A DNA stretch of 64,000 nt from Owenia fusiformis (lineage: Eukaryota; Annelida; Polychaeta; Sabellida; Oweniidae): assembly GCA_903813345.2 (NCBI GenBank), contig CAIIXF020000003.1:27297248-27361247 (forward strand), in the 5' to 3' direction. The position numbers and the translations under genes were made by a program. How positions within the stretch are numbered: the first letter of the stretch is position 1; every line of letters starts with the position of its first letter. Below the pieces are notes generated by a model, which was given only the letters and a program-made list of their open reading frames with translations, did not search any database and had not been told where the DNA came from. Below are positions 32,160 through 58,067 of the stretch, in pieces.

Positions 32160-33752
32160 ATGCTTCTCGCTGCTAAGAAGGGACATTTTGTCATACTTAA
32201 CACATTACTTAACATACTCGTGACAACTTACGAAGCAACTCACTTACGCTCTGCACCATCATCATCAAGAAGCAATTTACAAAGTGAAGAAATGATCCCC
32301 AAAAAGAGTATTAGTATTTCTCAAGCAGAGAGAGCTTGCAAAGAACACCATCCCAATTGGAAAAACAATGAAACACCAATGTTTTGTGATAGTTCTTCTT
32401 GCAAAAATAACTGTGGCAGTACAGGACAATGTTCTTGCGATCTAGATTGCTTTCATTATGGTGATTGCTGTTCAGATCTCACTGAATCATGTTCAAATAT
32501 TTTGCAGAATGGAATGAAGATACTAAACATAGATAACAGTGACAGAGACAAATATGAATGTGTAGCGATAAACGGAACGATGTTTGTGTATCTGGTATCT
32601 AGTTGTGATGCAGCACATCATGGATCATCTCTGGAGGTCTCGTGTAAAATTCCACAACATGATAATGATGAAATTATGCCTCAAACCCCAGCTGTAGATC
32701 CAGAAACAGGTGTTGTCTACAAGAATATTCACTGTGCAAGATGTAACAATGTGAAAGAGCCAAAACTGTGGGCAATAGAGACAGTATGTGAAAAGAAAAT
32801 ATTAACAGATCATAACATGAAAAATCCTGATATGAACTTCATTACAAAGATTCTTACGTCAAAGTTTTGTTTTTTAAGCTTCGTAGCACCAAATTATGCC
32901 AGAGTGCGAAGATGTGTGCCTACTGTATATAAATGCCCAAGCTGTGCTAATGAAACATTGAGTCAGCTCTGCGCAACTTCAGGGCTTCACCCTGTTCAAG
33001 CTCCAACAGATGAGCCAAATCCTGTCCCTGGGATTGTGTACCATAACAAGTTTTGTTGGTTTTGTGCCAACCCCACAGATTTGAATGGACGAGCTTGCCG
33101 CATAAATCTGGGGTACAGAAGTCCAGCACAATTTAAATTGTTCTCATTTCAAATATTAGTTGATGTTTCTGTAGATAACAAAAGAAGCCTTAATGTTCGT
33201 CCTTCTTGGGGAATTCAGAGTGTTGGGTTTGAACTTGAATGTGAAACTGAATCAAGATGTATGGCAGTAGCTTGTCCTGATGGTTATATGAAAAATGGGG
33301 AAAGGTGTGTTATGACAGGGAAATTAGTGCACACCATTTTAAGTGCAACATCATTGGATGAAAAGGAAGTTGACAAACAGACTGAGACTATGGAGAATCT
33401 TCTACAAGATACATTCATTCCTACAGGTTACATAGATTATAGTCATACTAGTGATCCTCCTGTAGATTATCAATCATCAACTGTCACAATAATATTGAGA
33501 TTCAATGTATCATTCCCTGGTAATGCAACAAATCTTGAGGTCCATAGAAATATGAGAACTAAATATGAGACATTTGTAATGCAAGCAGAGGAGGGAGACT
33601 TGTCTGAGATGAATATGACTTATGAGATACTGCCCTCAGAAGTAAACAATCCAGAAACAATTCTAGATGAGATAAACAGTACAACCTCAGCCTCATGTGA
33701 ATCCATCTGGCCACTGTTTATTGCAATCATAATTATGACATTTGTCTTGTAA
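32160..33752 (+). CDS. Somatomedin-B-domain secreted/GPI-anchored-type protein, copy A
   Basis: A single open frame of 530 residues. An in-frame TAA just upstream supports the ATG at 32,160. Residues 10-26 are a signal-peptide core. Residues 81-111 fit a somatomedin-B domain: C-x3-C-x5-C-x-C-x3-C-x5-CC-x6-C (Cys 81, 85, 91, 93, 97, 103, 104, 111). A second cysteine-rich part has CARCNNV (192-198), CPSCANET and CWFCANP, resembling ectodomains of molluscan adhesion/Methuselah-like receptors. Several N-glycosylation sites (NGT, NET, NVS, NAT, NMT, NST) fit an extracellular protein. The C terminus, SIWPLFIAIIIMTFVL then stop, looks like a GPI-attachment signal or single anchor; no seven-helix region follows. 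TTTCGTAG at 32,110-32,117 may be a 5' UTR splice acceptor. A polyadenylation-like AATAGA lies downstream. Function unknown. Confidence 0.85.
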   Translation: MLLAAKKGHFVILNTLLNILVTTYEATHLRSAPSSSRSNLQSEEMIPKKSISISQAERACKEHHPNWKNNETPMFCDSSSCKNNCGSTGQCSCDLDCFHYGDCCSDLTESCSNILQNGMKILNIDNSDRDKYECVAINGTMFVYLVSSCDAAHHGSSLEVSCKIPQHDNDEIMPQTPAVDPETGVVYKNIHCARCNNVKEPKLWAIETVCEKKILTDHNMKNPDMNFITKILTSKFCFLSFVAPNYARVRRCVPTVYKCPSCANETLSQLCATSGLHPVQAPTDEPNPVPGIVYHNKFCWFCANPTDLNGRACRINLGYRSPAQFKLFSFQILVDVSVDNKRSLNVRPSWGIQSVGFELECETESRCMAVACPDGYMKNGERCVMTGKLVHTILSATSLDEKEVDKQTETMENLLQDTFIPTGYIDYSHTSDPPVDYQSSTVTIILRFNVSFPGNATNLEVHRNMRTKYETFVMQAEEGDLSEMNMTYEILPSEVNNPETILDEINSTTSASCESIWPLFIAIIIMTFVL

Positions 33753-34800
33753 GACATTTTTTAAATTGTTGGAGGTCTGATCTGGTAAGGAGCGTGTACA
33801 CTGTACAATAGTAGTAATGAAGCATGATTTTTTGATTGAATAGATGACAACCACACATTCTAGTCTGAGAAAAATGCAAATTCTGCATGAAATCCCAAAT
33901 TCCGCGATAAATTCTGCAAACAACGGCTTCATCTGAAATTATCAAAAAAATACAGGGAATTCAAATTTCATAACATGTTAGACGTTATCTTTTAGCGCAA
34001 AAGGCGCAAAAAAGGCTTTTGAGAATTTTAACCATATTTCAAATGAATATGACAAATGACGGTATAAGGTGTCAAAGTGAGTGACAAATATGAGATGAGG
34101 TGGTTGATTGGAAAAATCAAGTTTTCCGTGAAATTATGTGCAAAAAATTAAATTCTGCAAAAATTCTGAAAACCATTATTCTGTGATTGTCCGCAGCGAC
34201 ACAAAGTCACAAATATCTAGTATGCATGTACAACATGTATATAGATAAGTGTCCTTCTTGGTGTCATAACCTTTACAAATATGTAATAATGAAAAGTGAA
34301 AATAAAATATTTTGAAATTGAGTGGATTGAAAATTGAGTTAAATAATCTGGTTGAATGATTATGAGAGGCATAGTAATCCCTCACCCTTGCTAACTTACA
34401 TCTGTTATAGCATGTGTTGCAATAACACATTGTCCCCATAAATAAGCTTTTAAATGCACCATTTCTCTTATATGATATCTTTTAAATTGATTAAATCCCA
34501 TGCGCAATTCAGGAATATCCAACTTAACTTGTCAGTACCTCAAAAGTATAATTTTCTATAATATAAGTAAAGTGAACATCTATTGACTCAAAAAAATATT
34601 TCATCATCAGCAGAAATGAGTTTTAAAATGGAATAAATTTTAAATTCATGGAGTAAATCACATAAATAGTATGCCCAAATGCCAACAGGAAAGTACCAAA
34701 ATGATTACAGAACACATAACATAACATAACCGCACTTCCCCCACCATTCAAGTACCAATATCACATTCCGAGACCATAACACCAAAGGACATTTCATTCA
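33753..34800. other. Downstream region of gene A, shared with unit D
   Basis: Contains 'aaattctgcatgaaatccca'-type text and, at about 34,320-34,440, a stretch nearly identical to 58,640-58,755 after gene D. Units B and C lack it. No gene. Confidence 0.6.
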
Positions 34801-35067
34801 TACTGAAGTAGATCTTGAAGAAAGAATTTAAAATTGACTACCAATACTCCTGACATCAAAAATAGTTGTATACAAGATAGAGATGTGGAAAAGACAAAAT
34901 CCAATCTCGAAGTCCATAAGTGTATCAAAGGGTCAACATCAAATCGCAAGGCCGATGTCACAATCCATTGCAATATTTCACATGATCATGAGGAGAAAAC
35001 TACAGGTGGTTTTGATTCCTATTTCTCAACCATTAATGCCATAGCCAGGATCCACCTAAAAAGGTGC
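34800..35067. repeat. Copy of the Penelope-like element 3' portion
   Basis: Matches 26,690-26,985 ('ccatagccgggatccaccta', 'ctcaaccattaatgccatag', 'caaagggtcaacatc'). The upstream stretch from 34,500 matches 61,140-61,490. Confidence 0.6.
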
Positions 35068-35614
35068 CAACCTTAGAGTGTGTGTGAATCTGTATGGAGT
35101 GTGCGGATGTCCGTACTCAGGGACTAAAAACAGGCTCAAACAAAGTTGAAATACACGCTAAACAATATTCCATATGTTTGCAAGTCTAGCTATGTAACAT
35201 ATTCTATATTGCAAATACTTATTCAAGATATTACTCGTAAGGTATATTTTCATTTGATGTAGTTTTGAGTATATATATTGGATAAATATTGAAAACATAC
35301 TGCATTATTTATCAGACCAATACATATAAATTATCAATATGTAGTGGATGATTGTACACCAAGATACGTACATGATTACATGCACAACTTATTGGGTACA
35401 TGTATATGTATATGTATAATACATTGTATGTGCCATATATTGGTGGACTGTGAAATGCTACATCTCAAGATAACCAAAATGTGCCGCGCATGTATCGAAA
35501 ACGGAATGGGTAGATACAGATTAGTTCTAAATTTTTTATAAAACTGACATCATGTGGCTATAGTACTCTGATACTTGCTTATTTCTGCGTAACAACAAGT
35601 GAGCCTACAACCAA
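35068..35614. other. AT-rich sequence, nothing recognised
   Basis: No coding or RNA gene is visible. It separates two repeat copies in the CDK10 intron. Confidence 0.35.
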
Positions 35615-36560
35615 ATGAAGGTGCTCACACAGTTTGGAACCTTCAGAGGAATGTATATACTGACTTTCAAACAAAAATATTGATTTGGATTTGTAGTCTC
35701 GAACTTTGAGAAACTTAGATAGCACAGTTGTGTGACCTAGTTTGATGACCTTTGACCTTGAAAATTTTACTTAGTCAGAGCTCAGTAAGGTCTTTTGTGA
35801 TTAAGCTGACCAAAATTTACATCCAAAAATCAATTTGAAAAATCAACTTTTTTGACCTTTCGAAGGTCAACTAAAGGTCAAATCCTAAAACTAATGTCAG
35901 ATTTGAACTCCTGGCAACTTGTAGATGATTTTCAAAAAAAAATTTGGTCAAATTGAAGCAAGTTGAAAAATAACTTATTTTTACTGTTTTTTGACGTCAA
36001 ATATCTCAAAAACTGTAAAAATTTGATGCTGACATATATTGAGCAATATGTAGGGAATGCTTTAATCTAGTAATGATGTAATTCATTGCAAGAAATGATC
36101 AAGTATAAGGCAAACTTTGAGAAACTTGTCAATCACAAAACCTGCCATTGACTTTATACATGAGAAAGTTTCCTGAAAATGAAGAAGTCCTACTTTTTGT
36201 CAAATTTTATAGAGTAAACACCAAAAACTGTAATTCCAAGAGCTTTGAAATCTTCAGAGGACATAAGTTGCATATACAGCAACTACTAAAAGTTATTTGA
36301 AAGTTCTACTTCAACAAAGTGTCTAGTATTTACAGAAAATTTGACTTTTTGATGTCAAAATCCGCAATTTCTCGGAAACCGGGCAACTTGGGAAATGGCG
36401 ATGATAGGTCAAATAGGCATTATGAATATGCATAAAATGAATGTGGCTATGACTCAATCCGAATAGCAGTTTTAATTTGTGCGGCCAATGTTGACGGACA
36501 GACGGACCAACGGACGGATGGACGGACCAACGGACGGACGCCTGGTCGGTGAGCCAAAAA
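35615..36560. mobile_element. Second copy of the ~1-kb GACG-ended element
   Basis: Nearly identical to 20,606-21,560, from 'gtgctcacacagtttggaac' to 'gacggacgcctggtcg', with small indels. Its 5' 'gaaggacccacggtcc' is missing. Confidence 0.75.
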
Positions 36561-36577
36561 GTACAAAACAGATACGT

Positions 36578-36655
36578 TCCTTCAGAAATCGAACCCACAA
36601 CCTGCCACACTTGAGGCGACAATTCTGCCAATAGACCGTTTGGACCGTGGTCAAT
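36578..36655 (-). repeat. tRNA-like sequence (SINE or tRNA pseudogene)
   Basis: Minus strand: GGTCTATTGGCAGAAT (A-box region), an anticodon-like GTCGC-loop-GTGGC, and B box GGTTCGATTTC (plus 36,585-36,595). The stems are imperfect, so a functional tRNA is unlikely. Confidence 0.45.
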
Positions 36656-36854
36656 TAAAATTACAGAAGCAATGAGACAGTCTAGTTGCAAGCATCGAAA
36701 AACCATGAATTACTTTTTAATGCATGAAATGTTCAATACATACACCCCTTCAAAACGAATAAACCCTTCTAATCCGAAAAAGCAAACACTTTGATCAACT
36801 CAACTAATTCTATTGAGTCCCTTTAAGCAATTCTGACATCCCTTGTATATTTTA

Positions 36855-36962
36855 GAAAAGCCTAAAAAGTATTTCTTAAGCTTTTTACAAATCCTTGGCC
36901 TAAGAGTTTTATCACTAAAATATTATGTCTTGACTTAAAATTTAAATATTTTGAGCATCAGC
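36855..36962 (-). pseudogene. Fragment of Penelope-like reverse transcriptase
   Basis: The stretch 'aaaagtatttcttaag' to 'ttaaatattttgagca' matches 27,095-27,190, the C-terminal part of the reverse transcriptase, with several changes. Confidence 0.6.
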
Positions 36963-37340
36963 CATTTCGAATTGAGTAGCCATCTTGAAAATTCCTTCTT
37001 AAATAGAGTCGCATGTCCATACAGCATCAACTGATATTTATGCTATCAAAAATACCTCAAGCAGAGGTACCAAATCATTCAACCGATATTTGAGTAATCA
37101 CCCAGACAAATGAAAGGAGAGATGGATGGACAAAAATACAGATGCACCTAGGCCAAGAATATGGCCCCACATTATGTGATGGGGACATAAAAATGACATC
37201 TTTTATCATGATCATGGTGTAGATATTAATGTTATTGTTGAAGGTGTTATTTTATGCCTCACCTATTTTTAAGCATCCTCTATTTTAAATTGAAACTTTT
37301 AAATCCCCGAAAAGTACAGATGTTCGTAATATACTATAAT
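36963..37340. repeat. Partial ~147-bp repeat and tail, shared with 62.06-62.48 kb
   Basis: The phrases 'tgagtaatcacccagacaaa', 'gaaaggagagatggatggac' and 'atggccccacattatgtgat' also occur at 62,060-62,480, showing that the downstream parts of units A and D are homologous. Confidence 0.6.
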
Positions 37341-37483
37341 ACTTTAAGTTATTGAATGATTTGAAGTGCAATACAGAATATATTCTGTTCAAGAAATTTT
37401 GTATTGGCACGAGACAAAGTCGAGAGACAAAATATAGAGACAGAATATATCCTGTATTGTTCTATGTTCTCTGTAAGTTTCAT

Positions 37484-37583
37484 GATCCTAGTAATAACTC
37501 GGGCGCCCTGTACCATAGTGTAACAACCTTGGGTGTCATTGGCTTCATCGGGAACTCAAACTTTCTATCAAGACTAAAGTCAG
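37484..37583 (-). pseudogene. Broken copy of the CDK10 DFG exon (start of unit B)
   Basis: About 100 bp match the first 100 bp of the CDK10 exon at 19,986-20,115, including its acceptor AG. DFG has become DFS and the following GLAR reads SLDR. The copy stops at the codons for LLLG, so the last ten codons and the splice donor are missing. It cannot supply a working kinase exon. Confidence 0.9.
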
Positions 37584-37772
37584 CTATAAAAATGGCGTAA
37601 TATTCCTTTAGTCGGACCTAAAAGTGTTAATATTGCAAAACACTTTTTCACACAAAATATTTCAAAAAATTTTGCAACTATGAAAAAATGATAAGACATG
37701 TCCCCACCAATACAATGGGTGAGCCTACGTTGATTTTTCATGCCCAACACTAATCAGTTGAAGAGGCAAGAT

Positions 37773-38110
37773 TTCAGCTGGGTTCGATTCCCACTCGGGG
37801 CATCAAATTTAGCACACTTTCTTTCAATTTCTTTATCTGGCTTGTTGGACCTAAGCTTGCGGTTGTTAGTTAGTTATTCCCCTGGGGCACCCCCGGGTCA
37901 TTACACATTACAATACACCCATTTGCCTTTATTTATGGATCTGTCATCTGTCTAGTCATAAAATAAAGCCGGAATTTAGAAATGTTAATAATTATCGCTA
38001 TTTTGAGATTTAAAAATCTTTAAAATTAAACCCTTCAATGACTGTATCATGTCCCACTTAGGTGGGTAGGTGGGTATGAGGTAGGAGGTTTTTATACAAA
38101 GCCGTATTGC
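37773..38110. repeat. 5'-truncated SINE copy plus right inverted arm
   Basis: Starts within the tRNA-like part ('gctgggttcgattcccactc') and continues as in 24,160-24,500, with the left arm and A box missing. Confidence 0.7.
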
Positions 38111-39635
38111 AGTTGTATTTGTATTTGATTTTGGATTTAATAAATGTTGGCAGAACGTAACAATTTGGGACAATAACACTCTATAATCAGAATGTAGTTA
38201 ATTACTTGACATCAATATTTTGCATTGGTCCCTTGGTCAATATCAAAAGGATTCATAATTAAACCTGGAGTAGAATTACATAGAATATGAAACAGTATAA
38301 GCATGATCTTCTTCTGCTATGCGTCATAATAACGTCCACTGTGAAACGTTGGATGTTTAATTCATTACTTCTTTGATCACTTTGATTGGGGTTTTTAATC
38401 AAAAATGCAAAACACCACCTGTAAGTGTGTTGGTCACTTAGTTTACATATACAGAGTGACCAAAACATTTTACATGGCAGTTCACATTACTGCCTGAAAG
38501 AACAGTCATCACTGAGAGCCATAAAAAGAAGTTTCAGAAAACACTCAAACTTTAACCAAATACAACCAGACTTCACGTGAGAAATACATGTTTAGTGATC
38601 AATCATTGCCTGACTTTAGAATACATAGAAAAGGAGTTAATTGAACATATCCTGCACTTCTATAGAATGAATTAATCAACTATTTTCACGACTTTCAAAT
38701 ATAGTGTTTTCAAATTCAAAAATGTTTTGCTTTGGCATCTAACCACATGAAAACCTTTTGAAGGCACTTCTTTTTGCAAAAACATATATACAAACTATAT
38801 TTCTTTAAGCTGTGTATACTGTAGCTAAGTATTTTTATAAATGAGACCCCATTAATAAGTAATAATAATAACCAATATTCAACCTTTTTAATGTTAAAAG
38901 TGTAGAATGAAACATACAGAGAATTCTTTCAGAAAAATATGCCTTATTAGTTTGTATTTCAATTCTTTTTGTCTAATATTATCCCAGAACTTACATTTTA
39001 CTTTTGAATCACCCTGTAAAACAAATATTTAAGATATATAACAGATCTCAAATCTAGAATATTTCTCGAAGCTGCTTCACTTAACTGATGAAAAATGCCT
39101 GAAAGGAGCATCAGAAACAGACAAGTTCATATTTTCAACTCAAGATCTTTAGAAATAATATAACTGATGATTTTAACATCTGGTAAGTATATTTTTATTG
39201 TACCTAGAAAAAGGTGCGATATTGGCGTCAGCTTGTTAAATATGTGATCAAGTGCATTTTAGTCTATTTTAAAGGCCCTACCTACAGAAAATGTTGACTA
39301 ATTTGACTAAGATTGACAAATTAATGGTTTTTAAATCTAAGAAGCGGAGTTACTTGATTCATCAAAGGGTAATATCAAGGAGGGTTCATGGACAAACCAT
39401 AACATAGATCCTTAGGATAGTTGGTTTACATTTTATTAGATTTTTTCATTTTGCTGAAGTAATGGGTCTCAAAATTGCCTGACTTCACATTGGGTATGGT
39501 TCGATTTAGTATTAATTGCTCAAATCCTTTATTAGAAGAATATTTCCTTCATAATAACTTTGATTTTGTGATTTGTTATAGCAGTAACCTGATTTGAAAG
39601 GATTTGAAAGGGAAAGTAAAATGGAAGCAATATTG

Positions 39636-39765
39636 TCAGGAATCACGAAAGTATTTTCAGGAATCACAAAAATGATTTTCAGGAATCATGAAAGTTTTTT
39701 CAGGAATCACGAAAATGATTTTCAGGAATCATGAAAGTATTTTCAGGAATCATGACAATGTTTCA
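39636..39765. repeat. ~22-bp tandem repeat, unit B (about 6 copies)
   Basis: Same 'tcaggaatcatgaaagtatt' core as in unit A, with one more copy. Confidence 0.85.
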
Positions 39766-39947
39766 AGGAAGCAGAGCATTGTGTGTCTTGCAATCTAGTT
39801 TCAATTTCTGAAAAAAGTTAAGTGCAGAAATTCTAACAAATTCATTAAAATTAAAAAAGTAGACATGCTTTTTCAGTGTTTTCATCTTATATATAAATTG
39901 AGGATTTTGACAAGTGGTAGCTTTGGTGATCTGGAGACAGTTGTAAC

Positions 39948-40382
39948 TAGTGGTGCAACTCGAATGCCAGTACCCGCCACTCACTCGTTGAACCTGTCCA
40001 AGATAGTTACTCGAGCACGTTTTTTCAAACTCGAGTAGGCATGTTTTATTATGAAGTGTTTTAAACCCCGGGAATGATCATTTTTGGATGCACTGAACGA
40101 AACAAAGTATCGATTCCGGAAAAAAATGAAAATATTTAAAAACAAACACAATTATGGCATGAATAACTACATTTATTCTCATTAAATTGATACAAACTAT
40201 ATATAACATCAATAACATATAGAAGAAACGAAGAAATTGTATCTATTTGGTCTTCAAACAGTAGACTAGGTGAGTTTTTTTTTTTTTTAATTTTTCCCTC
40301 ATTTTTGCGAGTGGTACTCGATTACAGTGGCATTTTCACACTTTCTACTCGAGTAGCATTTTTCTTGCGAGTTGCACCACTA
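39948..40382. mobile_element. hAT-like miniature element (435 bp), unit B
   Basis: Terminal inverted repeats TAGTGGTGCAACTCG and CGAGTTGCACCACTA lie between perfect 8-bp duplications GTTGTAAC (39,940-39,947 and 40,383-40,390). The uninterrupted target 'gacagttgtaacaggg' is present in units A, C and D. An 8-bp duplication with TAGNG-type ends is the hAT signature. No transposase. Confidence 0.93.
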
Positions 40383-41063
40383 GTTGTAACAGGGTGGTAA
40401 TTGGTTATGGACTACTGTTAAAGGTCCCAAGTTAAGTTTGAAATATGTTTTTAACAATCATTTACTGTTTTTCATGACTTTAAATATTATTTTAGAGATT
40501 TTAGAGAGCACTGTCAGCTTTTTATTTCTCACATATTCAAGCGACAAGTCTCAGTTTGGAGAATAGTCTCCTGGGCTAGTAATTTCAAATATGGGTGACC
40601 AAAATTAGGCTGAAAGCAATGGATCGCATGAGTTTTCCCTATGGGAAAATAACATGGAAAATATTGTTTTCCACTTTATCTAAAATGTGCATTATTCCTT
40701 TTGAAGGGTTAGCTGTGTGTCGAAATATAATAGTATTGATGCAACAAAAGTTGAAAAAGCAGGGGGTGAAAGGGGTTGAAAATCAGGACAACATTTAAGA
40801 AAAACATGTGGGTGGGTTGTTTGCACCTTCCAGTGTCTGAAAGTCGAAATTATTTTATCATCTCTATGAGTACTTTTCCTGGAGAAAAAGCACTGACCTA
40901 ACATATGCACCTGTTTAAATCCTCAGAAAATAGAAAAATCCAACATATGACAGTCCGTCAGGCTCAAAGAATGCTGAGTTCGATTTAATTAGAAAATTGC
41001 ATGATTTTTTGATTTCGTAGGACTGGCTTGAGAGAGACAATCAACAACTCAAACCAAATCAAA

Positions 41064-42650
41064 ATGCTTCTCACTGCAAAGAAGGGACATTTTGTCATAC
41101 TTAACACAATACTTAACATACTCGTGACAACATACGAAGCAACTCACTTACGCTCTGCACCATCATCATCAAGAGGCCATATACGGAGTGGAGAAATGAT
41201 CCCCCAAAAGAGAACTAGTATTTCTCAAGCAGAAGGAGCTTGCAAAGAGCACCATCCCAATTGGAAAAACAATGAAACACCAATGTTTTGTGATGGTCTT
41301 TCTTGCAAAAATAACTGTGGCAGTACAGGACAATGTTCTTGTGATCTAGATTGCTTTCAATATGGTGATTGCTGTTCTGATTTTACTGAATCATGTTCAA
41401 ATATTTTGAAGAATGGAACGAAGATAATCAACATGGATAACAGAGACAAATATGAATGTGTAGCGATAAACGGAACAATGTTTGTGTATCTGGTATCCAG
41501 TTGTGATTTGGCCCATCATGGATCACACCTGGAGGTCTCGTGTAAAATTCCAGAACTACATGATGATGATGAAATTATGCCTCAGACCCCAGCTGTAGAT
41601 CCAGAAACAGGTGTTGTCTACACAAATATTGACTGTGCAAGATGTAACAATGTTAAAGAGCCAAAACTGTGGGCAATAGAAACAGTATGTGAAAAGAAAA
41701 TATTAACAGATCATAACATGAAAAATCCTGATATGAACTTCATTACAAAGATTCTTACGTCAAAGTTTTGTTTCTTCAGCTTCATAGTCCCAAATTATGC
41801 ATGGGTGCGAAAATGTTTGCCTACCAAGTATAAATGCCCAAGCTGTGCTAATGAAACATTGAGTCAGCTCTGCGCAACATCCGGGCTCCATCCTGTTCAA
41901 GCTCCAACAGATGAGCCAAATCCTGTCCCTGGGATTGTGTACCATAACAAGTTTTGTTGGTTTTGTGCCAACCCCACAGATTTGAATGGACGAGCTTGCC
42001 GCATAAATCTGGGGTACAAAAGTTCAGCACAATTTAAATTGTTCTCATTTCAAATATTAGTTGATGTTTCCGTAGATAACAAAAGAAGCCTTAAAGTTCA
42101 TCCTTCTTGGGGAATTCAGAGTGTCGGGTTTGAACTTGAATGTGAAACTGAATCAAGTTGTATGGCAGTAGCTTGTCCTGATGGTTATATGAAAAATGGG
42201 GAAAGGTGTGTTATGACAGGGAAATTAGTGCACACCATTTTAAGTGCAACATCATTGGATCCAAAGAAAGCGGACAAACAGACTGAGACTATTGAGAATA
42301 TTCTACAAGATACATTCATTCCTACAGGTTACATAGATCATAGTCATAGTAGTAATATCCCTGAATGGTATCAACCAACAACTGTCATAATAATAATGAG
42401 ATTCAATGTATCATTCCCTGGTAATGCAACAAATCTTGAGGTCCATAGAAATATGAGAACTAAATATGAGACATTTGTAATGCAAGCAAAGGGAGACTTG
42501 TCTGAGATGAATATGACTTATGAGATACTGCCCTCAGAAGTAAACAGTCCAGAACCAATTCTAGATGAGACAAACAGTACAACCTCAGCCTCATGTGAAT
42601 CCATCTGGCCACTGTTTATTGCAATCATAATTATGACATTTGTCTTGTAA
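41064..42650 (+). CDS. Somatomedin-B-domain secreted/GPI-anchored-type protein, copy B
   Basis: Single open frame of 528 residues from ATG 41,064 (the frame is open further upstream, but only this ATG aligns with copy A and precedes the signal peptide). It has the same layout as copy A: signal peptide, somatomedin-B cysteine pattern, CARCNNV, CWFCANP, N-glycosylation sites, and a C-terminal hydrophobic tail ending IIIMTFVL. It shares SNIPEWYQPTTV and IENILQDTF with copy C, where A and D have SDPP.DYQSSTV and MENLLQDTF. An AATAAA signal lies at 42,692-42,697. It lies antisense to CDK10 within the same intron-sized gap. Intact; function unknown. Confidence 0.85.
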   Translation: MLLTAKKGHFVILNTILNILVTTYEATHLRSAPSSSRGHIRSGEMIPQKRTSISQAEGACKEHHPNWKNNETPMFCDGLSCKNNCGSTGQCSCDLDCFQYGDCCSDFTESCSNILKNGTKIINMDNRDKYECVAINGTMFVYLVSSCDLAHHGSHLEVSCKIPELHDDDEIMPQTPAVDPETGVVYTNIDCARCNNVKEPKLWAIETVCEKKILTDHNMKNPDMNFITKILTSKFCFFSFIVPNYAWVRKCLPTKYKCPSCANETLSQLCATSGLHPVQAPTDEPNPVPGIVYHNKFCWFCANPTDLNGRACRINLGYKSSAQFKLFSFQILVDVSVDNKRSLKVHPSWGIQSVGFELECETESSCMAVACPDGYMKNGERCVMTGKLVHTILSATSLDPKKADKQTETIENILQDTFIPTGYIDHSHSSNIPEWYQPTTVIIIMRFNVSFPGNATNLEVHRNMRTKYETFVMQAKGDLSEMNMTYEILPSEVNSPEPILDETNSTTSASCESIWPLFIAIIIMTFVL

Positions 42651-42907
42651 GACATCTTGGATAGTAGTAATGGAGCATGATTTCTTGATTGAATAAATGA
42701 CTGACAACCACACATACTAGTTTTCTGCATGATAAAAATCAAAATTCTGCATGAAAAAGTCAAATTCTGCATGAAATCCCAAGTTCCGTAATAAATTTTG
42801 CAAGCAAGCAAGCATCTGAAATTATACAAAATTGTGGTTAACTGGAAAAATCAACTTTTCCGTGAAATTATGTGCAAAAAATCAAATTCTGCAAAAATTC
42901 TGTAATC

Positions 42908-42935
42908 CAAACTTTCTAGCAAGACCAAAGTCAGC
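42908..42935 (-). pseudogene. 28-bp relic of the CDK10 DFG exon (start of unit C)
   Basis: The minus strand reads the codons for ADFGLARKF after an AG acceptor and then leaves the kinase sequence. The flank upstream on the minus strand (42,936-43,380) continues to match the CDK10 intron at 20,116-20,560. Confidence 0.85.
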
Positions 42936-43965
42936 TGTAAAAATGGTGTAATGTTCTTTTAGTCCTAACATGTTACATTGCAAAACACTTTTTCATAGAA
43001 AATATTTCAATTAATTTTGTAACAATGAAAAAATTACAAGACATGTCCCCACCAATACAATGTGTGGTCCTACGTTGAGTTTTCATCCTGAATGACCAAC
43101 ACTAATCAGTTGAAGAGGCAAGATTTCAGAACAAGAAATCAAAAATTGCTGCCTTAACTAGAATGCCCAATTGAAGCTAATCAGTTGATATTTTCATCCA
43201 AAGAATCAACACTGAAATTTTGAAATGGATCCATCAAATGGTTCACCTGCAAATACGTAGACAAAACAAGATTTTTACATGTTGAGAGTAAATAGTACTT
43301 GGTAAGTTAATGGAAGTTGTAAGAAATTGTTACAGATGCCAACAAGAGAGACTATAACATTATGTCACAACTTTTGTATAAAATAAAATAAAATAAAAAT
43401 GCCAGGCTTTGTAATAGCTTAATGAATAAAAAAAAACAGTAAATTGACCAAACACATTTGTAACAAACAGTGGTGTGAATTACATACAATTAATTAAGTC
43501 CCATGTGCAATACAAAAATATCCAACTTATCTTGTCAATGACTCAACAAAACGTGTTAATTTTCTATAATTACTTACAGTGTACGTTCTTGACTCGAAAA
43601 TATATTCTACATAAAATGAATGCATTATTAAGTTTACATGAATCCCCCAGAAATAAACAATTAAATGAACCTCGGGGATGGCTAATGGGCCGATGCAAAA
43701 GTTCAATGTAGGAGAGGTAACTATATTTAATACATGTAGTTAACTCTCAGATACCCCCTTCCCTCAGATACCTCCTTCACCAATAACCTGTTAATAACCA
43801 TCTAATATTCCCTTTTCAAAAAGATGCATATCAACTTCATTATATTCTTCTATTTTAGATGTATTTTTATGAAATTTCTCCATGATATATGATATGAGGG
43901 ATTTAATAATCAATATCAGTAGAACTGAGGTAACTATATGGGACAATAACACTACCTATCAGAAT

Positions 43966-46231: not shown

Positions 46232-46380
46232 GTCAGGAATCACGAAAATGATTTTCAGGAATCATGAAATTATTTTCAGGAATCACGAAAATGATTTTCA
46301 GGAATCATGAAAATATTTTCAGGAATAAAAAATGATTTTCAGGAATCATGAAAGTATTTTCAGGAATCATGACAATGTTT
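46232..46380. repeat. ~22-bp tandem repeat, unit C (about 7 copies)
   Basis: Same core as in units A and B, with one unit shortened ('aggaataaaaaatgattttc'). Confidence 0.85.
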
Positions 46381-47025: not shown

Positions 47026-47046
47026 TACTGTTTTTCATGACTTTAA

Positions 47047-48439: not shown

Positions 48440-48835
48440 TTATAGTACAACTGAAATAGTGATTTCAATGTGAAATTTTATTTAAAGTACAACTGAAATA
48501 GTGATTTCAATGTGAAATTTTATTTAAAGTACAACTGAAATAGTGATTTCAATGTGAAATTTTATTTAAAGTACAACTGAAATAGTGACTTAAACTTGAA
48601 ATTTTATCTAAAGCACAACTGAAATAGTTATTTTATTTAAAGTACAACTGAAATAGTGATTTCAATGTGAAATGTTATTTAAAGTACAACTGAAATAGTG
48701 ATTTCAATGTGAAATTTTATTTAAAGTACAACTGAAATAGTGATTTCAATGTGAAATTTTATTTAAAGTGCAACTGAAATAGTGATTTCAATGTGAAATT
48801 TTATTTAAAGCACAACTGAAACAGTAATTTAGACA
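48440..48835. repeat. 42-bp tandem repeat upstream of gene C (about 10 copies)
   Basis: Unit 'gtacaactgaaatagtgatt' then 'tcaatgtgaaattttattta', with one shortened unit near 48,625-48,650. It lies about 0.6-1.0 kb upstream of the copy C start codon. Confidence 0.9.
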
Positions 48836-49410
48836 TGTAATCAATTTTATTTCATAAAGAATGTATTTGAACATGTCATCTAATCAGTAATGCTGAATGT
48901 GGCAATATTTAAATGTTTTGTGACATATTTTGGCCCCCACGTGCATGACTTTTCACTGGCCCAACATGGCCCATTTTCATCCACTTAATCATGATGTCAT
49001 GTGGTTGCTATAACATTGTGATTACCAAGAAATCAATAAACCAGAACTATAAATAAATATGATGTCAATGATCATCTGGGATCAAATCTGACTGATCCAT
49101 TAATTTTTATAACTGTTATAACTGTTTTATATACTGTTATAGAATATTAGCAGTAATTTATCATTTATATTAATGGAAATTGCAAGAACTTTGGGTTGGG
49201 CTTACAATGCCTAAAACCATATTTTTATAGACTGATGCAAGCTGAGAAAACCTATTTCAGTTGTGCTTCAGTGGTCAAAAGAAAATACCAAGCATTCTTT
49301 TAGCTCAGGCTCAAAGAATGCTAAGTTCGATTTAATTAGAAAATTGCATGACTTTTTGATTTCGTAGGACTGGCTTGAGAGGGACAATCAACAACTCAAA
49401 CCCAATCAAA

Positions 49411-50999
49411 ATGTTTCTCGCTGCAAAGAAGGGACATTTTGTCATACTTAACACAATACTTAACATACTCGTGACAACATACGAAGCAACTCACTTACGC
49501 TCTGCACCATCATCATCAAGAAGCCATATACGAAGTGGAGAAATGATCCCCCAAAAGAGAACTAGTATTTCTCAAGCAGAAAGCGCTTGCAAAGAACACA
49601 ATCCAAATTGGAAAAACAATGAAACACCAATGTTTTGTGATAGTCTTTCTTGCAAAAATAACTGTGGCAGTACGGAACAATGTTCTTGCGATCTAGATTG
49701 CTTTCAATATGGTGATTGCTGTTCTGATTTTACTGAATCATGTTCAAATATTTTGAAGAATGGAACGAAGATACTCAACATGGATAACAGAGACAAATAT
49801 GAATGTGTAGCGATAAACGGAACAATGTTTGTGTATCTGGTATCCAGTTGTGATTCGGCCCATCATGGATCACCTCTGGAGGTCTCGTGTAAAATTCCAG
49901 AACTACATGATGATGATGAAATTATGCCTCAGACCCCAGCTGTAGATCCAGAAACAGGTGTTGTCTACACGAATATTGACTGTGCAAGATGTAACAATGT
50001 TAAAGAGCCAAAACTGTGGGCAATAGAAACAGTATGTGAAAAGAAAATATTAACAGATCATAACATGAAAAATCCTGATATGAACTTTATTACAAAGATT
50101 CTTACGTCAAAGTTTTGTTTCTTCAGCTTCATAGTCCCAAATTATGCCAGGGTGCGAAAATGTTTGCCTACCAAGTATAAATGCCCAAGCTGTGCTAATG
50201 AAACATTGAGTCAGCTCTGCGCAACATCCGGGCTCCATCCTGTTCAAGCTCCAACAGATGAGCCAAATCCTGTCCCTGGATTGTGTACCATAACAAGTTT
50301 TGTTGGTTTTGTGCCAACCCCACAGATTTGAATGGACGAGCTTGCCGCATAAATCTGAGGTACAAAAGTTCAGCACAATTTAAATTGTTCTCATTTCAAA
50401 TATTAGTTGATGTTTCCGTAGATAACAAAAGAAGCCTTAAAGTTCATCCTTCTTGGGGAATTCAGAGTGTCGGGTTTGAACTTGAATGTGAAACTGAATC
50501 AAGTTGTATGGCAGTACTAGCTTGTCCTGATGGTTATATGAAAAATGGGGAAAGGTGTGTTATGACAGGGAAATTAGTGCACACCATTTTAAGTGCAACA
50601 TCATTGGATTCAAAGAAAGCGGACAAACAGACTGAGACTATTGAGAATATTCTACAAGATACATTCATTCCTACAGGTTACATAGATCATAGTCGTAGTA
50701 GTAATATCCCTGAATGGTATCAACCAACAACTGTCACAATAATAATGAGATTCAATGTATCATTCCCTGGTAATGCAACAAATCTTGAGGTAGATAGAAA
50801 TATGAGAACTAAATATGAGACATTTGTAATGCAAGCAGAGGGAGACTTGTCTGAGATGAATATGACCTATGAGATACTGCCCTCAGAAGTAAACAGTCCA
50901 GAACCAATTCTAGATGAGAGAAACAGTACAACCTCAGCCTCATGTGAATCCATCTGGCAACTGTTTATTGCAATCATAATTATGACATTTGTCTTGTAA
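49411..50999 (+). pseudogene. Somatomedin-B-domain protein, copy C, with one-base frameshift
   Basis: The coding text aligns throughout with copy B. Near 50,279 the 'ccctgggattg' of A, B and D reads 'ccctggattg' here, a missing G in a GGG run. The first frame (from ATG 49,411) ends at 50,331 after the somatomedin-B and CARCNNV regions, and the second frame carries the rest to 50,999. The upstream product would lack the CWFCANP half and the membrane tail. A three-base insertion adds a leucine codon at about 50,516 (MAVLACPDG). AATAAA is at 51,041. It is either a recent pseudogene, a truncated secreted form, or a sequencing error; everything else looks intact. Confidence 0.75.
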
Positions 51000-51257
51000 G
51001 ACATCTTGGATAGTAGTAATGGAGCATGATTTCTTGATTGAATAAATGACTGACAACCACACATACTAGTTTTCTGCATGATAAAAATCAAAATTCTGCA
51101 CGAAAAAGTCAAATTCTGCATGAAATCCCAAATTCTGTAATAAATTTTCCAAGCAAGCAAGCATCTGAAATTATCACAAAATTGTGGTTAACTGGAAAAA
51201 TCAACTTTTCCGTGAAATTATGTGCAAAAAATCAAATTCTGCAAAAATTCTATAATC

Positions 51258-51285
51258 CAAACTTTCTAGCAAGACCAATGTCAGC
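51258..51285 (-). pseudogene. 28-bp relic of the CDK10 DFG exon (start of unit D)
   Basis: Same junction as at 42,908, with one further change in the codons after DFG/GLA. It marks a B/C and a C/D boundary of identical structure. Confidence 0.85.
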
Positions 51286-53518
51286 TGTAAAAATGGTGTA
51301 ATGTTCTTTTAGATCTAACATGTTACATTGCAAAACACTTTTTCATAGAAAATATTCCAATTAATTTTGTAACAATGAAAAAATTACAAGACATGTCCCC
51401 ACCAATACAATGTGTGGTCCTACGTTGAGTTTTCATCCTGAATGACCAACACTAATCAGTTGAAGAGGCAAGATTTCAGAACAAGAAATCAAAAATTGCT
51501 GCCTTAACTAGAATGCCCAATTGAAGCTAATCAGTTGATATTTTCATCCAAAGAATCAGCACTGAAATTTTGAAATGGATCCATCAAATGGTTCACCTGC
51601 AAATACGTAGACAAAACAAGATTTTTACATGTTGAGAGTAAATAGTTCTTGGTAAGTTAATGGAAGTTGTAAGAAATTGTTACAGATGCCAACAAGAGAG
51701 ACTATAACATTATGTCACAACTTTTGTATAAAATAAAATAAAATAAAAATGGCAGGCTTTGTAATAGCTTAATGAATAAAAAAAACAGTAAATTGACCAA
51801 ACACATTTTTAACAAACAGTGGTGTGAATTACATACAATTAATTAAGTCCCATGTGCAATACAAAATAACCAACTTATCTTGTCAATGCCTCAACAAAAC
51901 GTGTTAATTTTCTATAATTACTTTCAGTGTACCTTCTTGACTCGAAAATATATTCTACATAAAATGAATGCATTATTAAGTTTAGATGAATCCCCCAGAA
52001 ATAAACAATTAAATGAACCTTGGGGATGGCTTATGGGCCGATGCAAAAGTTCAATGTAGGAGAGGTAACTATATTAAATAAATGTGGTTACCTCTCAGAT
52101 ACCCCCTTCCCTCAGATACCTCCTTCACCAATAACCTGTTAACGACCATCTAATATTCCCTTTTCAAAAAGATGCATATCAACCTCATTATATTCTTTTA
52201 TTTTAGATGTATTTTTATGAAATTTCTCCATGATATATGATTTAATAATCAATATCAGTAGAACTGAGGTAACTACTATAGTATATGGGGCAATAACACG
52301 ACCTATCAGACTGTCAGAAATATTTTGCATTAGTCCCTTGGTCAACATCAAAAGGATTCATAATTAAACCTAGAGTAGAATTACATAGAAAATGAAACAG
52401 TATAAGCATGATCTTCTTCTGCTATGCGTCATAATAACGTCCACTGGGAAATGTTGGATGTTTAATTCATTACTTGTTTGATCACTGTGATTGGAGTCTT
52501 TAATCAAAAAAGCAAAACACCACCTGTAGGTGTGTTGCCCACTTATTTAACAGATACAGAGTAACCAAAACATTTTACATGGCAGTTCACATTACTGCCT
52601 GAAAGAACAGTCACCACCTAGAGCCATAAAAAGAAGTTTTAGAAAACACTCAAACTTTAACCAAATGCAACCAGACTTCAAGCGAGAAATATGTGTTTAG
52701 TGATCCGTCATTGCCTGACTCTAGAATACAAATTGAAAAGGAGTTCACTGAACATATATGTATCCTGCACTGCTATACAATGAATTACACAACTACTTTC
52801 TCAACGTTCAAATATGGTGTTTTCAAATTCAAAAATGATTTGCCTTGGCATCTATCCACATGAAAACTTTTTGAAGGCTCTTCTTTTTGCAAAAACATAT
52901 ATACAAACTATGTTTCTTTAAGCTGTACAGTATATGTACTGTAGCTAAGTATTGATATAAAAGAGACCCCACTAATAATAACCAATATTCAACCTTTTTA
53001 ATGTTAAAAATGTAGAATGAAACATACAGAGAATTCTTTCAGAAAAATATGCCTTATTAGTTTGTATTTCAATTCTTTTTGTCTTATATTATCCCAGAAC
53101 TTACACTTTACTTTTGTATCACTCTGTAAAACAAATATTTAAGATATATAACAGATCAAATCTAGAATATTTCTCGAAGCTGCTTCACTTAACAGATGAA
53201 AAAATGCCTGAAAGGAGCATCAGACACAGACAAGTTCATATTTTCAACTCAAGATCGTTAGAAATAATATAAAAAGAAAATAACTGATGATTTTAACATC
53301 CGGTAAGTATATTTTAATTGTACCTAGAAAAAGGTATGGTATTGGTGTCAGCTTGTTTAATGTGTGATCGATTGCATTTTAGTCTATTTTAAAGGGCCTA
53401 GCTACCGAAAATGTTGACTAATTTGACTAAGATTGACAAATTAATGGTTTTTAAATCTAAGAAGCAGTGTTACTAGATTCATCAAAGGGTAATATCGAGG
53501 AGGGTTCATGAACAAATA

Positions 53519-54092
53519 GCCTTGCAAAAGTCGGTCTCTTTTACTTAACTTGGTAATAATCCAAGATCAGATACTGTAAAACGGGTATTGTTAGCAAGGG
53601 GTAATTGTTAGCGATTGTTACCGATCGCTACAGTTTTGCTAAAAATTCAATTCGCTAAAATAAACCGGGTTAAAATAAACTGGGCGCTAAAATTTGCAAA
53701 TCCACGGGAAACTACATGAATACTAGTATTTAAGGAGCTTTTCGTTCAGTGCTCAACTTCCGGTTTGTAATTTGAAAAAGGTAAATATTTTTAAATCGTA
53801 TGTTTCTTTCAATATCTGAAGGATAAATAGCCATGCATCAGTGAAATAGTATTAGTAGTAAATATAAAGATAAAAGGTGTTAATTGAACACGGTTCAACA
53901 ACCAATGATATTGCTTAAATTCTCCCGTACCATAAGTGAGCAAAGGATCACTTTCAAAATCAAAGTCTATAATCATCATTACGCTAAAAATTTCCCGCGC
54001 TAAAGCCCCATAAAATTGAAAAATCGCTAAAATTTCCCGGTGTCAAAATTACCCGTTTTACAGTAAGTAAAAAATACCGACTTGGGCAAGGC
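53519..54092. mobile_element. Family 1 miniature element (unit D) interrupted by another
   Basis: The ends GCCTTGCAAAAGTCGGT and ACCGACTTGGGCAAGGC are flanked by TA (53,517-53,518 and 54,093-54,094). The body is split by the insertion 53,574-54,063. Confidence 0.85.
53574..54063. mobile_element. TA-flanked miniature element nested in another (490 bp)
   Basis: Inverted ends CTGTAAAACGGGTA and TACCCGTTTTACAG are flanked by TA (53,572-53,573 and 54,064-54,065). The uninterrupted host sequence 'gatcagataagtaaaa' is seen at 4,579 and 25,953. Non-coding. Confidence 0.9.
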
Positions 54093-54359
54093 TAATAAAC
54101 AAACCTTGATGGAGCTCATTGGGTTAGTTGGTTTACATTTTATCAGATTTTTTCTTTTTGCTTAAGTAATGGGTCTAAAAATTACCTGCCTGTCTGGGTA
54201 TGGTTAGATTTAGTATTAATTGCTCAAATCCCTTATTAGAAGAATATTTCCTTCATAATAATAATTCAAGGTTGATAACTTTGATTTTGTGATTGGTTAT
54301 AGCAGTGACCTGATTTGAAAGGAATTTGAAAGGGAAAGAAAGTAAAATGGAAGCAATAT

Positions 54360-54507
54360 TGTCAGGAATCACGAAAGTATTTTCAGGAATCACAAAAATA
54401 ATTTTCAGGAATCATGAAAGTATTTTCAGGAATTATGAAAATATTTTCAGGAATAACAAAAATGATTTTCAGGAACCATGAAAGTATTTTCAGGAATCAT
54501 GACAATG
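54360..54507. repeat. ~22-bp tandem repeat, unit D (about 7 copies)
   Basis: Same core as in units A-C. Confidence 0.85.
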
Positions 54508-55534
54508 TTTCAAGGAAGCAGAGCATTTTGTGTCTTGCGATCTAGTTTCAATTTCTGAAAAAAGTTAAGTGCAGAAATTCTAACAAATTCATTATAAAAT
54601 TGAAAAAGTAGACATGCATTTTCAGTGTTTACATCATATAAATAAATTGAGGATTTTGACAAGTGGTAGCTTTGGTGGTTTGGAGACAGTTGTAACAGGG
54701 GTGGACTACTGTTAAAGGTCCCAAGTAAAGTTTGAAAATATGTTTTTAACAATCATTTACTGTTTTTCATGACTTTAAATGTTATTTTAGAGATTTTAGA
54801 AAAAAACTGTCAGCTTTTTATTTCTCACATATTCAACGGACAAGTCTCAGTTTGGAAAATAGTCTCCTGGGCAAGTAATTTCAATTATTGGTGACCGAAA
54901 TTAAGCTGAAAGCAATGGATCACATGAGTTTCCCCTATGGGAAAATAACAAGGAAAATATTGTTTTCCACTTTGTCTAAAATATGCATTATTCCTTTTAA
55001 AGGGTTAGCTGTGTGTCGAAACGTAATATATTGATGCAACAAAAGTTGAAAAAGCAGGGGATGGAAGGGGTTGAAATTCAGGACAACATTTAAGAAAAAA
55101 CCTGTAAGTGGATTGTTTGCACCTTCCAGTGCTGAAAGTCAAAATTATCATCTCTATGAGCACTTTTCCTGGAGAAAGAGCATTGGCCTAACATATGCAC
55201 CTGTGTAAATCCTCAGAAAATAGACAAAATCCAACATATGACAGTCCGAAATCTGTTGCAATACTTCCTGTGCTCCTTTTATCTAAATCACAACTGAAAT
55301 AGTAATTTAGACATAAAGTAATCAATTTTATGTGATAAAGAATGTACTAGTATTTGAATGTGTCATTTGAATCAGTAATGTGGCTACTGTTTCATTCTAC
55401 TAAATGTGGCAATATTTAAATGTTTTGTTACATATTTTGGCCCCCACATGACTATTCATGAGCCTAACATGGCCCAATAGGTCCACTAAATCATGACATC
55501 ATAATTCTGAGAGTTTCGATATTTATTTAACCTG

Positions 55535-55930
55535 AAATTTTATTTAAAGAACAACTGAAATAGTGATTTCAATGTGAAATTTTATTTAAAGAACAACTGA
55601 AATAGTGATTTCAATGTGAAATTTTATTTAAAGTACAACTGAAATAGTGATTTCAATGTGAAACTTTATTTAAAGTACAACTGAAATAGTGATTTAAACT
55701 TGAAATTTTATCTAAAGCACAACTGAAATAGTAATTTTATATAAAGTACAACTGAAATAGTGATTTCAATGTGAAATGTTATTTAAAGTACAACTGAAAT
55801 ATTGATTTTAATGTGAAATTTTATTTAAAGTACAACTGAAATAGTGATTTCAATGTGAAATTCTATTTAAAGTACAACTGAAATAATGATTTCAATGTGA
55901 AATTTTATTTAAAGCACAACTGAAATAGTA
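55535..55930. repeat. 42-bp tandem repeat upstream of gene D (about 10 copies)
   Basis: Same unit and internal shortened copy as upstream of gene C (48,440-48,835). Only two copies are seen upstream of A and none upstream of B. Confidence 0.9.
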
Positions 55931-56483
55931 ATTTAGACATGTAATCAATTTTATTTCATAAAGAATGTATTTAAACATGTCATCTAATCAGTTATGCTGA
56001 ATGTGGCAATATTTAAATGTTTTGTGACATATTTTGGCCACCACATGCATGACTTTTCACTGGCCCATTTTCGTCCACTTAATCATGATGTCATGTGATT
56101 ACCAAGAAATCAATAAACCAGAACTATAAATAAATATAATGTCAATGATCATCTGGGATCCAATGTGACTGATCAATTAATTTCATAACTGTTATAACTG
56201 TTTTTATATACTGTTATAAGAATATTAGCAGTAATTTACCATTTATATTAATGGAAATTGCGAGAACTTCGGGCTTACAATGCCTAAAACCATATTTTTA
56301 TAGACTGATGCAAGCTGAGAAAACCTATTTCAGTTGTGCTTCAATGGTCAAAAGAAAATACCCAGCATTCTTTTAGCTCAGGCTCAAAGAATGCTAAGTT
56401 CGATTTAATTAGAAAATTGCATGATTTTTTGATTTCGTAGGACTGGCTTGAGGGGGACAATCAACAACTCAAACCCAATCAAA

Positions 56484-58067
56484 ATGTTTCTCGCTGCTAA
56501 GAAGGGACATTTTGTCATACTTAACACAATACTTAACATACTCGTAACAACATACGAAGCAACTTACTTGCGCTCTGCACCATCATCATCAAGAAGCAAT
56601 TTACGAAGTGGAGAAATGATCCCCAAAAAGAGTACCAGCAATTCCCTAGCAGAAAGAGCTTGCAAAGAAGGGCATCCCAATTGGAAAAACAATGAAACAC
56701 CAATGTTCTGTGATAGTCTTTCTTGCAAAAATAACTGTGGCAGTACGGGACAATGTTCTTGCGATCTAGATTGCTTTCAATATGGTGATTGCTGTTCAGA
56801 TTTCACTGAATCATGTTCAAATATTTTTAAGAATGGACCGAAGATACTAAACATAGATAACAGAGACAAATATGAATGTGTAGCGATAAACGGAACAATG
56901 TTTGTGTATCTGGTATCTAGTTGTGATTCGGCCCATCATGGATCATCTCTGGAGGTCTCGTGTAAAATTCCAGAACATGATGATGATGAAATTATGCCTC
57001 AAATCCCAGCTGTAGATCCAGAAACAGGTGTTGTCTACAAGAACATTGACTGTGCAAGATGTAACAATGTGAAAGAGCCAAAACTGTGGACGATAGAAAC
57101 AGTATGTGAAAAGAAAATATTAACAGATCATGACATGAAAAATCCTGACATGAATTTCATTACAAAGATTCTTACGTCAAAGTTTTGTTTCTTCAGCTTC
57201 ATAGTCCCAAATTATGCCAGGGTGCGAAAATGTTTGCCTACCGAGTATAAATGCCCTAGCTGCGCTAATGAAACATTGAGTCAGCTCTGCGCAACTTCCG
57301 GGCTCCATCCTGTTCAAGCTCCAACAGATGAGCCAAATCCTGTCCCTGGGATTGTGTACCATAACAAGTTTTGTTGGTTTTGTGACAACCCCACAGATTT
57401 GAATGGACGAGCTTGCCGCATAAATCTGGGGTACAGAACTCCAGCACAATTTAAATTGTTCTCATTTCAAATATTAGTTGATGTTTCCGTAGATAACAAA
57501 AGAAGCCTTAAAGTTCATCCTTCTTGGGGAATTCAGAGTGTTGGGTTTGAACTTGAATGCAAAACTGAATCAAGATGTATGGCAGTAGTTTGTCCTGATG
57601 GTTATATGAAAAATGGGGAAAGGTGTATAATGACAGGGAAATTAGTGCACATCATTTTAAGTGCAACATCATTGGATCAAAAGGATGCAGACAAACAGAC
57701 TGAAACTATGGAGAATCTTCTACAAGATACATTCATTCCTACAGGTTACATAGATAATAGTCATACTAGTGATCCTCCTGAAGATTATCAATCATCAACT
57801 GTCACAATAATAATGAGATTCAATGTATCATTCCCTGGTAATGCAACAAATCTTGAGATCCATAGAAATATGAGAACTAAATATGAGACGTTTGTAATGC
57901 AAGCAGAGGGAGACTTGTCTGAGATGAATATGACTTATGAGATACTGCCCTCAGAAGTAAACAATGCAGAAACAATTCTAGATGAGATAAACAGTACAAC
58001 CTCAGCCTCATGTGAATCCATCTGGCAACTGTTTATTGCAATCATAATTATGACATTTGTCTTGTAA
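56484..58067 (+). CDS. Somatomedin-B-domain secreted/GPI-anchored-type protein, copy D
   Basis: Single open frame of 527 residues from ATG 56,484, preceded by the same TTTCGTAG|GACTGG context as the other copies (56,433-56,446). The signal peptide, somatomedin-B cysteines, CARCNNV, CWFCDNP (CANP in the others), N-glycosylation motifs and hydrophobic C-terminal tail are all kept. In its variable segment (SDPPEDYQSSTV, MENLLQDTF) and its AATAGA downstream motif it groups with copy A. It is intact, antisense to CDK10, and of unknown function. The family resembles receptor ectodomains without a seven-helix part. Confidence 0.85.
   Translation: MFLAAKKGHFVILNTILNILVTTYEATYLRSAPSSSRSNLRSGEMIPKKSTSNSLAERACKEGHPNWKNNETPMFCDSLSCKNNCGSTGQCSCDLDCFQYGDCCSDFTESCSNIFKNGPKILNIDNRDKYECVAINGTMFVYLVSSCDSAHHGSSLEVSCKIPEHDDDEIMPQIPAVDPETGVVYKNIDCARCNNVKEPKLWTIETVCEKKILTDHDMKNPDMNFITKILTSKFCFFSFIVPNYARVRKCLPTEYKCPSCANETLSQLCATSGLHPVQAPTDEPNPVPGIVYHNKFCWFCDNPTDLNGRACRINLGYRTPAQFKLFSFQILVDVSVDNKRSLKVHPSWGIQSVGFELECKTESRCMAVVCPDGYMKNGERCIMTGKLVHIILSATSLDQKDADKQTETMENLLQDTFIPTGYIDNSHTSDPPEDYQSSTVTIIMRFNVSFPGNATNLEIHRNMRTKYETFVMQAEGDLSEMNMTYEILPSEVNNAETILDEINSTTSASCESIWQLFIAIIIMTFVL

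Follow-up and report, generated by a model that had tools for sequence, protein, structure and literature searches.

The stretch of DNA considered here, referred to as the window, is the 64,000-nucleotide interval C3:27297248-27361247 (forward strand) of the annelid Owenia fusiformis. It contains four related plus-strand genes (copies 1 to 4, Table 1) with a somatomedin B (SMB) domain, and we have examined them together with their relatives in the 498-Mb genome. The original prediction, made from the sequence of the window alone, described four genes of about 530 codons, each with a signal peptide, an SMB cysteine pattern and a C-terminal hydrophobic tail running directly into the stop codon. 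Copies 1, 2 and 4 are indeed intact and end in this way. Copy 3 departs from the description: compared with copy 2, it has a one-base deletion near position 50277 that splits its frame, and a three-base insertion 3' of the deletion at about 50515. The copy may truly be null, or the assembly may be in error at this place.

The predicted SMB domain is present in that the eight-cysteine pattern is complete in the window copies, copy 1 included. Copies 2, 3 and 4 score 23.2, 27.0 and 23.2 bits against the Pfam SMB family (PF01033), above the cut-off of 23.1, and copy 1 remains below it at 8.0 bits despite having all eight cysteines in place; a relative at C1:20922364 reaches 43.6 bits. The foreseen signal peptide is also supported. 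With a hydropathy rule, signal-peptide-like starts were found at 15 of 15 loci, compared with 40 of 690 internal methionines. These 15 come from the 20 loci with upstream DNA (L005, L008, L009, L019 and L020 were left out), and both the signal-start calls and the C-terminal calls described below come from home-made rules, not trained predictors. A profile search for SMB and for GAIN or seven-transmembrane (7TM) domains, proposed with the original prediction, was positive for SMB as above and gave no match to GPS or GAIN in the four window proteins (Pfam, E<=5) and none to the class-B 7TM family 7tm_2 (PF00002). The Methuselah_N ectodomain (PF06652) is not among the Pfam matches of the window proteins, the scanned relatives or the alignment members. 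Apart from SMB and 7tm_2, those scans yielded only weak matches below cut-off, for example that of copy 2 to SPATA48 (14.5 bits).

The description of a four-copy cluster greatly understates the size of the family. A Pfam SMB search of the genome (E<=0.001) returned at least 104 matches, a lower bound because copy 3 alone of the window copies appears among them, and a search with the copy 1 protein gave at least 82 matches (81 of 124 candidates scored). The nearest relatives outside the window are on C4, on C9 and further along C3. By a 60-kb rule, 46 of the 104 SMB matches fall in 17 groups.

Sixteen of the 104 SMB matches share a reading frame with a downstream 7tm_2 domain; a seventeenth, C1:21155593, was dropped since its 7tm_2 domain is 8 kb away in another open frame. 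In 15 of the 16 the ectodomain and 7TM domain form one uninterrupted frame, and L087 has a stop at the first transmembrane helix (TM1). The suggestion that the window proteins resemble receptor ectodomains is supported, as the same kind of ectodomain fronts these receptors. A copy 1 query directly matched seven of the 16 7TM frames, for example with 28% identity over query residues 77-469. The distance from the end of SMB to 7tm_2 is 1195-1249 nt in ten of the 16, 1108 nt in one and 1498-1543 nt in five, and in copy 1 the distance from the end of SMB to the tail is about 1206 nt, so that the tail starts about where TM1 starts in most of the receptors. When ten frames were scanned, the six 7TM frames matched SMB and 7tm_2 and the four tail-type frames matched SMB only. 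No GPS or GAIN was found in any of the six 7TM paralogs scanned of the 16 (E<=0.1).

Behind the SMB domain is a region of about 270 residues in which 16 alignment columns are invariant, 13 of them cysteine, among 34 representatives of the 80 sequences available. Eleven of the 34 rows are 7TM paralogs, aligned with the tail-type rows and with the same cysteines invariant. Both cysteines of CARCN are among them, as is the first cysteine of CWFC, whereas the second cysteine of CWFC is almost invariant. In profile and member searches neither this middle region nor the juxtamembrane region that follows it had a credible relative in Pfam or the PDB. The three PDB matches to the middle-region profile (34 of 80 rows) have E values of 0.28-0.84 and are taken as chance, and a PDB search with a profile of 89 frames matched, among the best 60 of 61 rows, only the SMB stretch (EndoU, ENPP, vitronectin and SUSD2) and the helices of adhesion G protein-coupled receptors (GPCRs). 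The cysteine-rich middle appears to be an undescribed extracellular module common to tail-type and 7TM proteins. A SEA-like ferredoxin fold was considered for the juxtamembrane part and gained no support: its profile (38 of 72 rows) found two PDB chains at E<=10, neither of them named SEA, SEA is absent among the 15 Pfam families listed for members, and a weak structural model is all-beta.

The original prediction also raised the possibility of a glycosylphosphatidylinositol (GPI) anchor. Our rule for a GPI-attachment signal consists of an omega triplet, a spacer, an uncharged hydrophobic run and at most five residues behind the run. It was applied to 73 of 97 loci, after removal of the 16 rows with a 7TM domain and of eight loci that are fragments or have a broken or open frame (L008, L009, L019, L037, L055, L061, L077 and L079). 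The rule is passed by 45 of the 73 family frames, counting L081, which has no stop in the stretch fetched. It is passed by 129 of 2190 internal cuts (6%), 269 of 2190 shuffled ends (12%) and 11 of 146 unrelated window frames of at least 60 residues (8%), which lends support to the GPI proposal; since many of the family rows are near duplicates of one another, these are not independent counts. Copies 1, 2 and 4 pass, with an omega site, a spacer, a hydrophobic tail of 12-16 residues with nothing behind it, and no cytosolic part. It is likely, from these features of the sequence, that the window copies are GPI-anchored. Derivation of the tail from a truncated TM1 is without clear support and is not disproved. 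In a comparison of 70 of the 73 tails (L032, L068 and L081 were left out), the mean best score against TM1 was 23.34 versus 22.43 for shuffled sequences (sd 4.57), and against TM5 it was 24.34 versus 22.97, TM1 being no clearer than other helices.

The ratio of nonsynonymous to synonymous substitution (dN/dS) is 0.36-0.51 among the intact window copies, 0.32-0.35 for copy 1 or 4 compared with the copy at 32.95 Mb on C3, and 0.40-0.46 in three pairs with a C4 or C9 copy. For each of those eight pairs, no more than one of 1000 codon bootstraps gave a ratio of 1 or more, and the intact window copies show purifying selection. Further pairs reach 0.77 (two C11 copies). Between copies 3 and 2 the ratio is 0.31 in the first half (1 or more in 5 of 1000 bootstraps) and 1.04 in the second half, on ten changes only.

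A tree of 81 rows and 306 columns was built after dropping 16 of the 97 loci, and copy 3 is not in it. Five of those dropped are broken or fragments (L008, L009, L019, L037 and L061); the others have unusual layouts. L023, L092 and L096 are swollen by internal repeats of the PPLEQIPDQ type, the GENIESS type and a long cysteine-containing CRQCDNSTT type, respectively. L020, L093, L094 and L095 (C11 and C4) have the ectodomain split into two frames behind the SMB half, which suggests an intron gained or kept there. L055, L077, L079 and L081 (C3 and C9) form a divergent SMB subgroup of about 450-500 residues with a different middle region; none has a stop in the stretches fetched, and a hydrophobic end is seen in L081 only. 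Tail-type proteins make up 65 of the 81 tree rows. Copies 1, 2 and 4 are in an all-tail clade of 39 rows (support 99/96), within which they and four close relatives form a clade of seven (support 100/99.9). In the free tree the 7TM label requires two changes, with one clade of 14 and the pair L039/L074, and a single clade of all sixteen 7TM rows is not rejected (p value of the approximately unbiased test, 0.127). Many long branches meet, leaving the deep joins unsure, and because the tree is unrooted the loss of a 7TM part cannot be told apart from its gain.

We propose, with a probability of roughly 0.6, that the window genes encode GPI-ended ectodomain paralogs of SMB-bearing class-B receptors of the Methuselah/adhesion-like kind, the GPI anchorage itself being inferred. 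The support is the ectodomain in common with 7TM paralogs, the lack of any 7TM part found, the stop near the position of TM1, and purifying selection. In this reading the genes belong to a large family of secretory-pathway proteins that carry the ectodomain of an SMB receptor, with a GPI-attachment signal taking the place of the 7TM domain. In the endoplasmic reticulum the tail would be cut off and replaced by GPI, placing the proteins on the outer leaflet. More tentatively, the proteins might use SMB and the cysteine-rich region to bind extracellular ligands of the class recognized by their 7TM relatives, and might act as co-receptors, ligand traps or adhesion proteins with no signaling of their own; the decoy role put forward in the original prediction is a guess. 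A role coupled to the ligands of the 7TM paralogs is conceivable, at somewhat less than even odds.

Several observations weigh against this proposal. The home-made GPI rule, which is not a trained predictor, is failed by 28 of the 73 frames. In 24 of the 28 failures, 6-14 residues, often basic, follow the hydrophobic run, so that some members may be short single-pass proteins; among the others, three lack the omega triplet alone and L032 lacks the hydrophobic run, and the run of L068 is weak. An AlphaFold2 model of copy 1, from an alignment of the three intact window proteins, has a predicted local distance difference test score (pLDDT) of 27, and the all-beta model of the juxtamembrane region, from the four window copies, a pLDDT of 52, neither of them good enough to justify a search for related folds. 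Copy 3 and C3:32936124, two members of the closest eight, have broken frames, so that decay accounts for part of the turnover.

The failing frames give some weight to the best-surviving alternative, that these are secreted or very short single-pass proteins whose hydrophobic end is a remnant or weak membrane anchor instead of a GPI signal. The residues behind the run that cause 24 of the failures include basic ones in L062, L067 and L069. However, the run of the window copies has nothing behind it and its length is short for a usual single-pass helix, the majority of frames satisfy the whole GPI rule, and hydrophobic ends recur in very diverged members. We regard this alternative as unlikely, if still the most serious competitor of the GPI-ended paralog model.

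It is improbable to a much greater degree that the genes are decaying, being truncated 7TM-receptor pseudogenes that were tandemly duplicated. The two broken members and the fairly high dN/dS among the intact window copies would suit such a scenario, but three window copies, as well as relatives at dS of about 0.5 and dN/dS of about 0.4, keep intact frames of about 530 codons, and tail-type proteins predominate in the tree. Nor is there a 7TM remnant in the window, as the original prediction had held: the best match from 14 paralog 7TM queries has an E value of 0.11, whereas the same queries recovered the control receptors L082 and L039 with E values no worse than 1e-24, counting self matches. 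Least probable of all is that splicing skips the stop and joins a distant 7TM exon to give ordinary receptors. The likely 3' splice site upstream of the ATG does mean that transcripts may be spliced, but 15 of the 16 7TM paralogs are uninterrupted frames. For 81 places that lack an in-frame 7TM domain, the matches listed include no 7tm_2 domain within 100 kb downstream on the same strand, and none is listed on C3, the contig of the window. The 7tm_2 list is a lower bound. The 81 places were drawn from the SMB list and the copy 1 search, include copy 3 and other broken copies, and were not all fetched; small frames, C1:21155593, C1:16998076 and the L055/L077/L079/L081 group are outside them.

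The 7TM side of the family is a known kind of receptor. SMB domains are described on Methuselah-like class-B receptors in Nematostella, amphioxus and acorn worm homologs (PMC4768249), and their combination of SMB with a class-B 7TM domain is that of the six 7TM paralogs scanned here. The window genes and most of the fetched relatives differ in having no 7TM domain, and their middle region has no credible Pfam match. Enlarged invertebrate families of SMB-fronted class-B receptors are also on record, namely the Schmidtea PARF1 group with 12 SMB-bearing receptors (PMC3261222) and the SMB/Kringle adhesion-receptor expansion of amphioxus (PMC2246102). Both are presented as GPCRs, and the passages concerned make no mention of GPI-ended paralogs. 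The original prediction attributed seven-helix relatives to molluscs; such SMB-fronted class-B receptors are in print for the sea anemone, amphioxus, acorn worm and planarians, and the present genome is that of an annelid, in keeping with its three matches to Eryth_link_C, the annelid hemoglobin-linker domain. The mollusc hemocyanin domain PF14830 gave no match, in a search whose controls gave none either. Among the papers listed by searches of open-licence literature we recognized no 7TM-less, GPI-ended SMB family, and the word somatomedin does not occur in the main text of an annelid paper (PMC10192322).

The best functional parallel is the CEACAM family, in which one ectodomain family is found on signaling receptors and on GPI-anchored paralogs, and in which the GPI signals are thought to stem from stop codons in a transmembrane exon (PMC2832619). 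CEACAMs are unrelated mammalian proteins of the immunoglobulin fold, and an origin of the tail from TM1 is unsupported in the window family. A second parallel is Reck, a GPI-anchored protein that works together with the adhesion GPCR Adgra2/Gpr124; the abstract gives no paralogy of Reck to the receptor ectodomain (PMC5200908).

The original prediction placed the genes between CDK10 exons on the opposite strand. More exactly, all four are housed, antisense, in one CDK10-like intron of about 42 kb (62421 to 20115), mapped by tblastn with an approximate sequence of the human CDK10 kinase region as query. The exon next to the long intron on its 3' side is the activation-loop or DFG exon, and decayed copies of parts of it are present within the intron (Table 1). 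In that at 37483-37777 the DFG motif reads DFS and the donor end of the real exon is missing. These stretches indicate that the duplications of the SMB genes probably took part of CDK10 with them. We see no reason for a link between the functions of CDK10 and the SMB genes.

Six copies (L001-L004, L006 and L007) have, as judged by eye, a T-rich tract ending in AG some 43 bases upstream of the ATG, which is likely the 3' splice site of a noncoding first exon; four of the six are near-identical in that stretch. In copy 1 an in-frame stop between this site and the ATG makes the ATG the likely start. Upstream of L014, L015, L016 and L018, although not L017, there is instead a TATA-like motif about 55 bases before the ATG (by eye). 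Two mobile-element-like minus-strand frames are located upstream of the cluster: 27006-27821, with a weak reverse-transcriptase match of 16.4 bits, below cut-off, and 29602-30072, with no Pfam match at E<=0.01.

Table 1. Features of the SMB genes and the surrounding CDK10-like intron (positions in the window; aa, amino acids; UTR, untranslated region)
Feature	Position	Strand	Remarks
Copy 1, intact coding exon, 530 aa	32160..33752	+	Signal-like start, then SMB, the cysteine-rich and juxtamembrane regions and a hydrophobic tail up to the stop
SMB domain of copy 1 (residues 80-112)	32397..32495	+	Pfam
GPI-signal-like hydrophobic C-terminus of copy 1 (last 16 residues before the stop, all uncharged)	33702..33749	+	
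Likely 3' splice site (T-rich tract, AG at 32115-32116) and ~43 bases of 5' UTR, copy 1	32115..32159	+	By eye
Copy 2, intact coding exon, 528 aa	41064..42650	+	
Copy 3, broken	49411..50999	+	306-aa frame 49411-50331, then second frame to 50999
Copy 4, intact coding exon, 527 aa	56484..58067	+	
Three CDK10-like exons 5' of the long intron	63437-63351, 63098-63030, 62489-62421	-	tblastn and splice ends
CDK10-like exons 3' of the long intron	about 20115-19985, 19547-19425, 18147-18007	-	tblastn and splice ends
Decayed copy covering most of the DFG exon of CDK10, with some flanking DNA	37483..37777	-	80% identical DNA
Decayed copy behind copy 2: first ~27 bases of the DFG exon plus ~300 bases of the neighboring intron	42908..43267	-	86% identical DNA
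Decayed copy behind copy 3: first ~27 bases of the DFG exon and adjoining intron	51258..51617	-	84% identical DNA

By analogy with the CEACAMs, it is possible to imagine, as a speculation that we would sooner doubt than accept, a two-tier recognition system in which a few SMB-fronted class-B signaling receptors are accompanied by a several-fold larger, tandemly multiplying set of GPI-anchored ectodomains built on the undescribed cysteine-rich module. The latter would trap ligands or work as co-receptors, whether in immunity, self-recognition, chemosensation or reproduction. If the GPI-ended paralog model is true, one animal genome holds a receptor ectodomain far more often in a lipid-anchored than in a signaling form, and the two forms would have in common an extracellular module, with 13 invariant cysteines in 34 sequences, that has not been described before. 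It would also provide an example among invertebrates of receptors that evolve alongside GPI-anchored paralogs, in which the decoy or co-receptor idea would be testable outside mammals.

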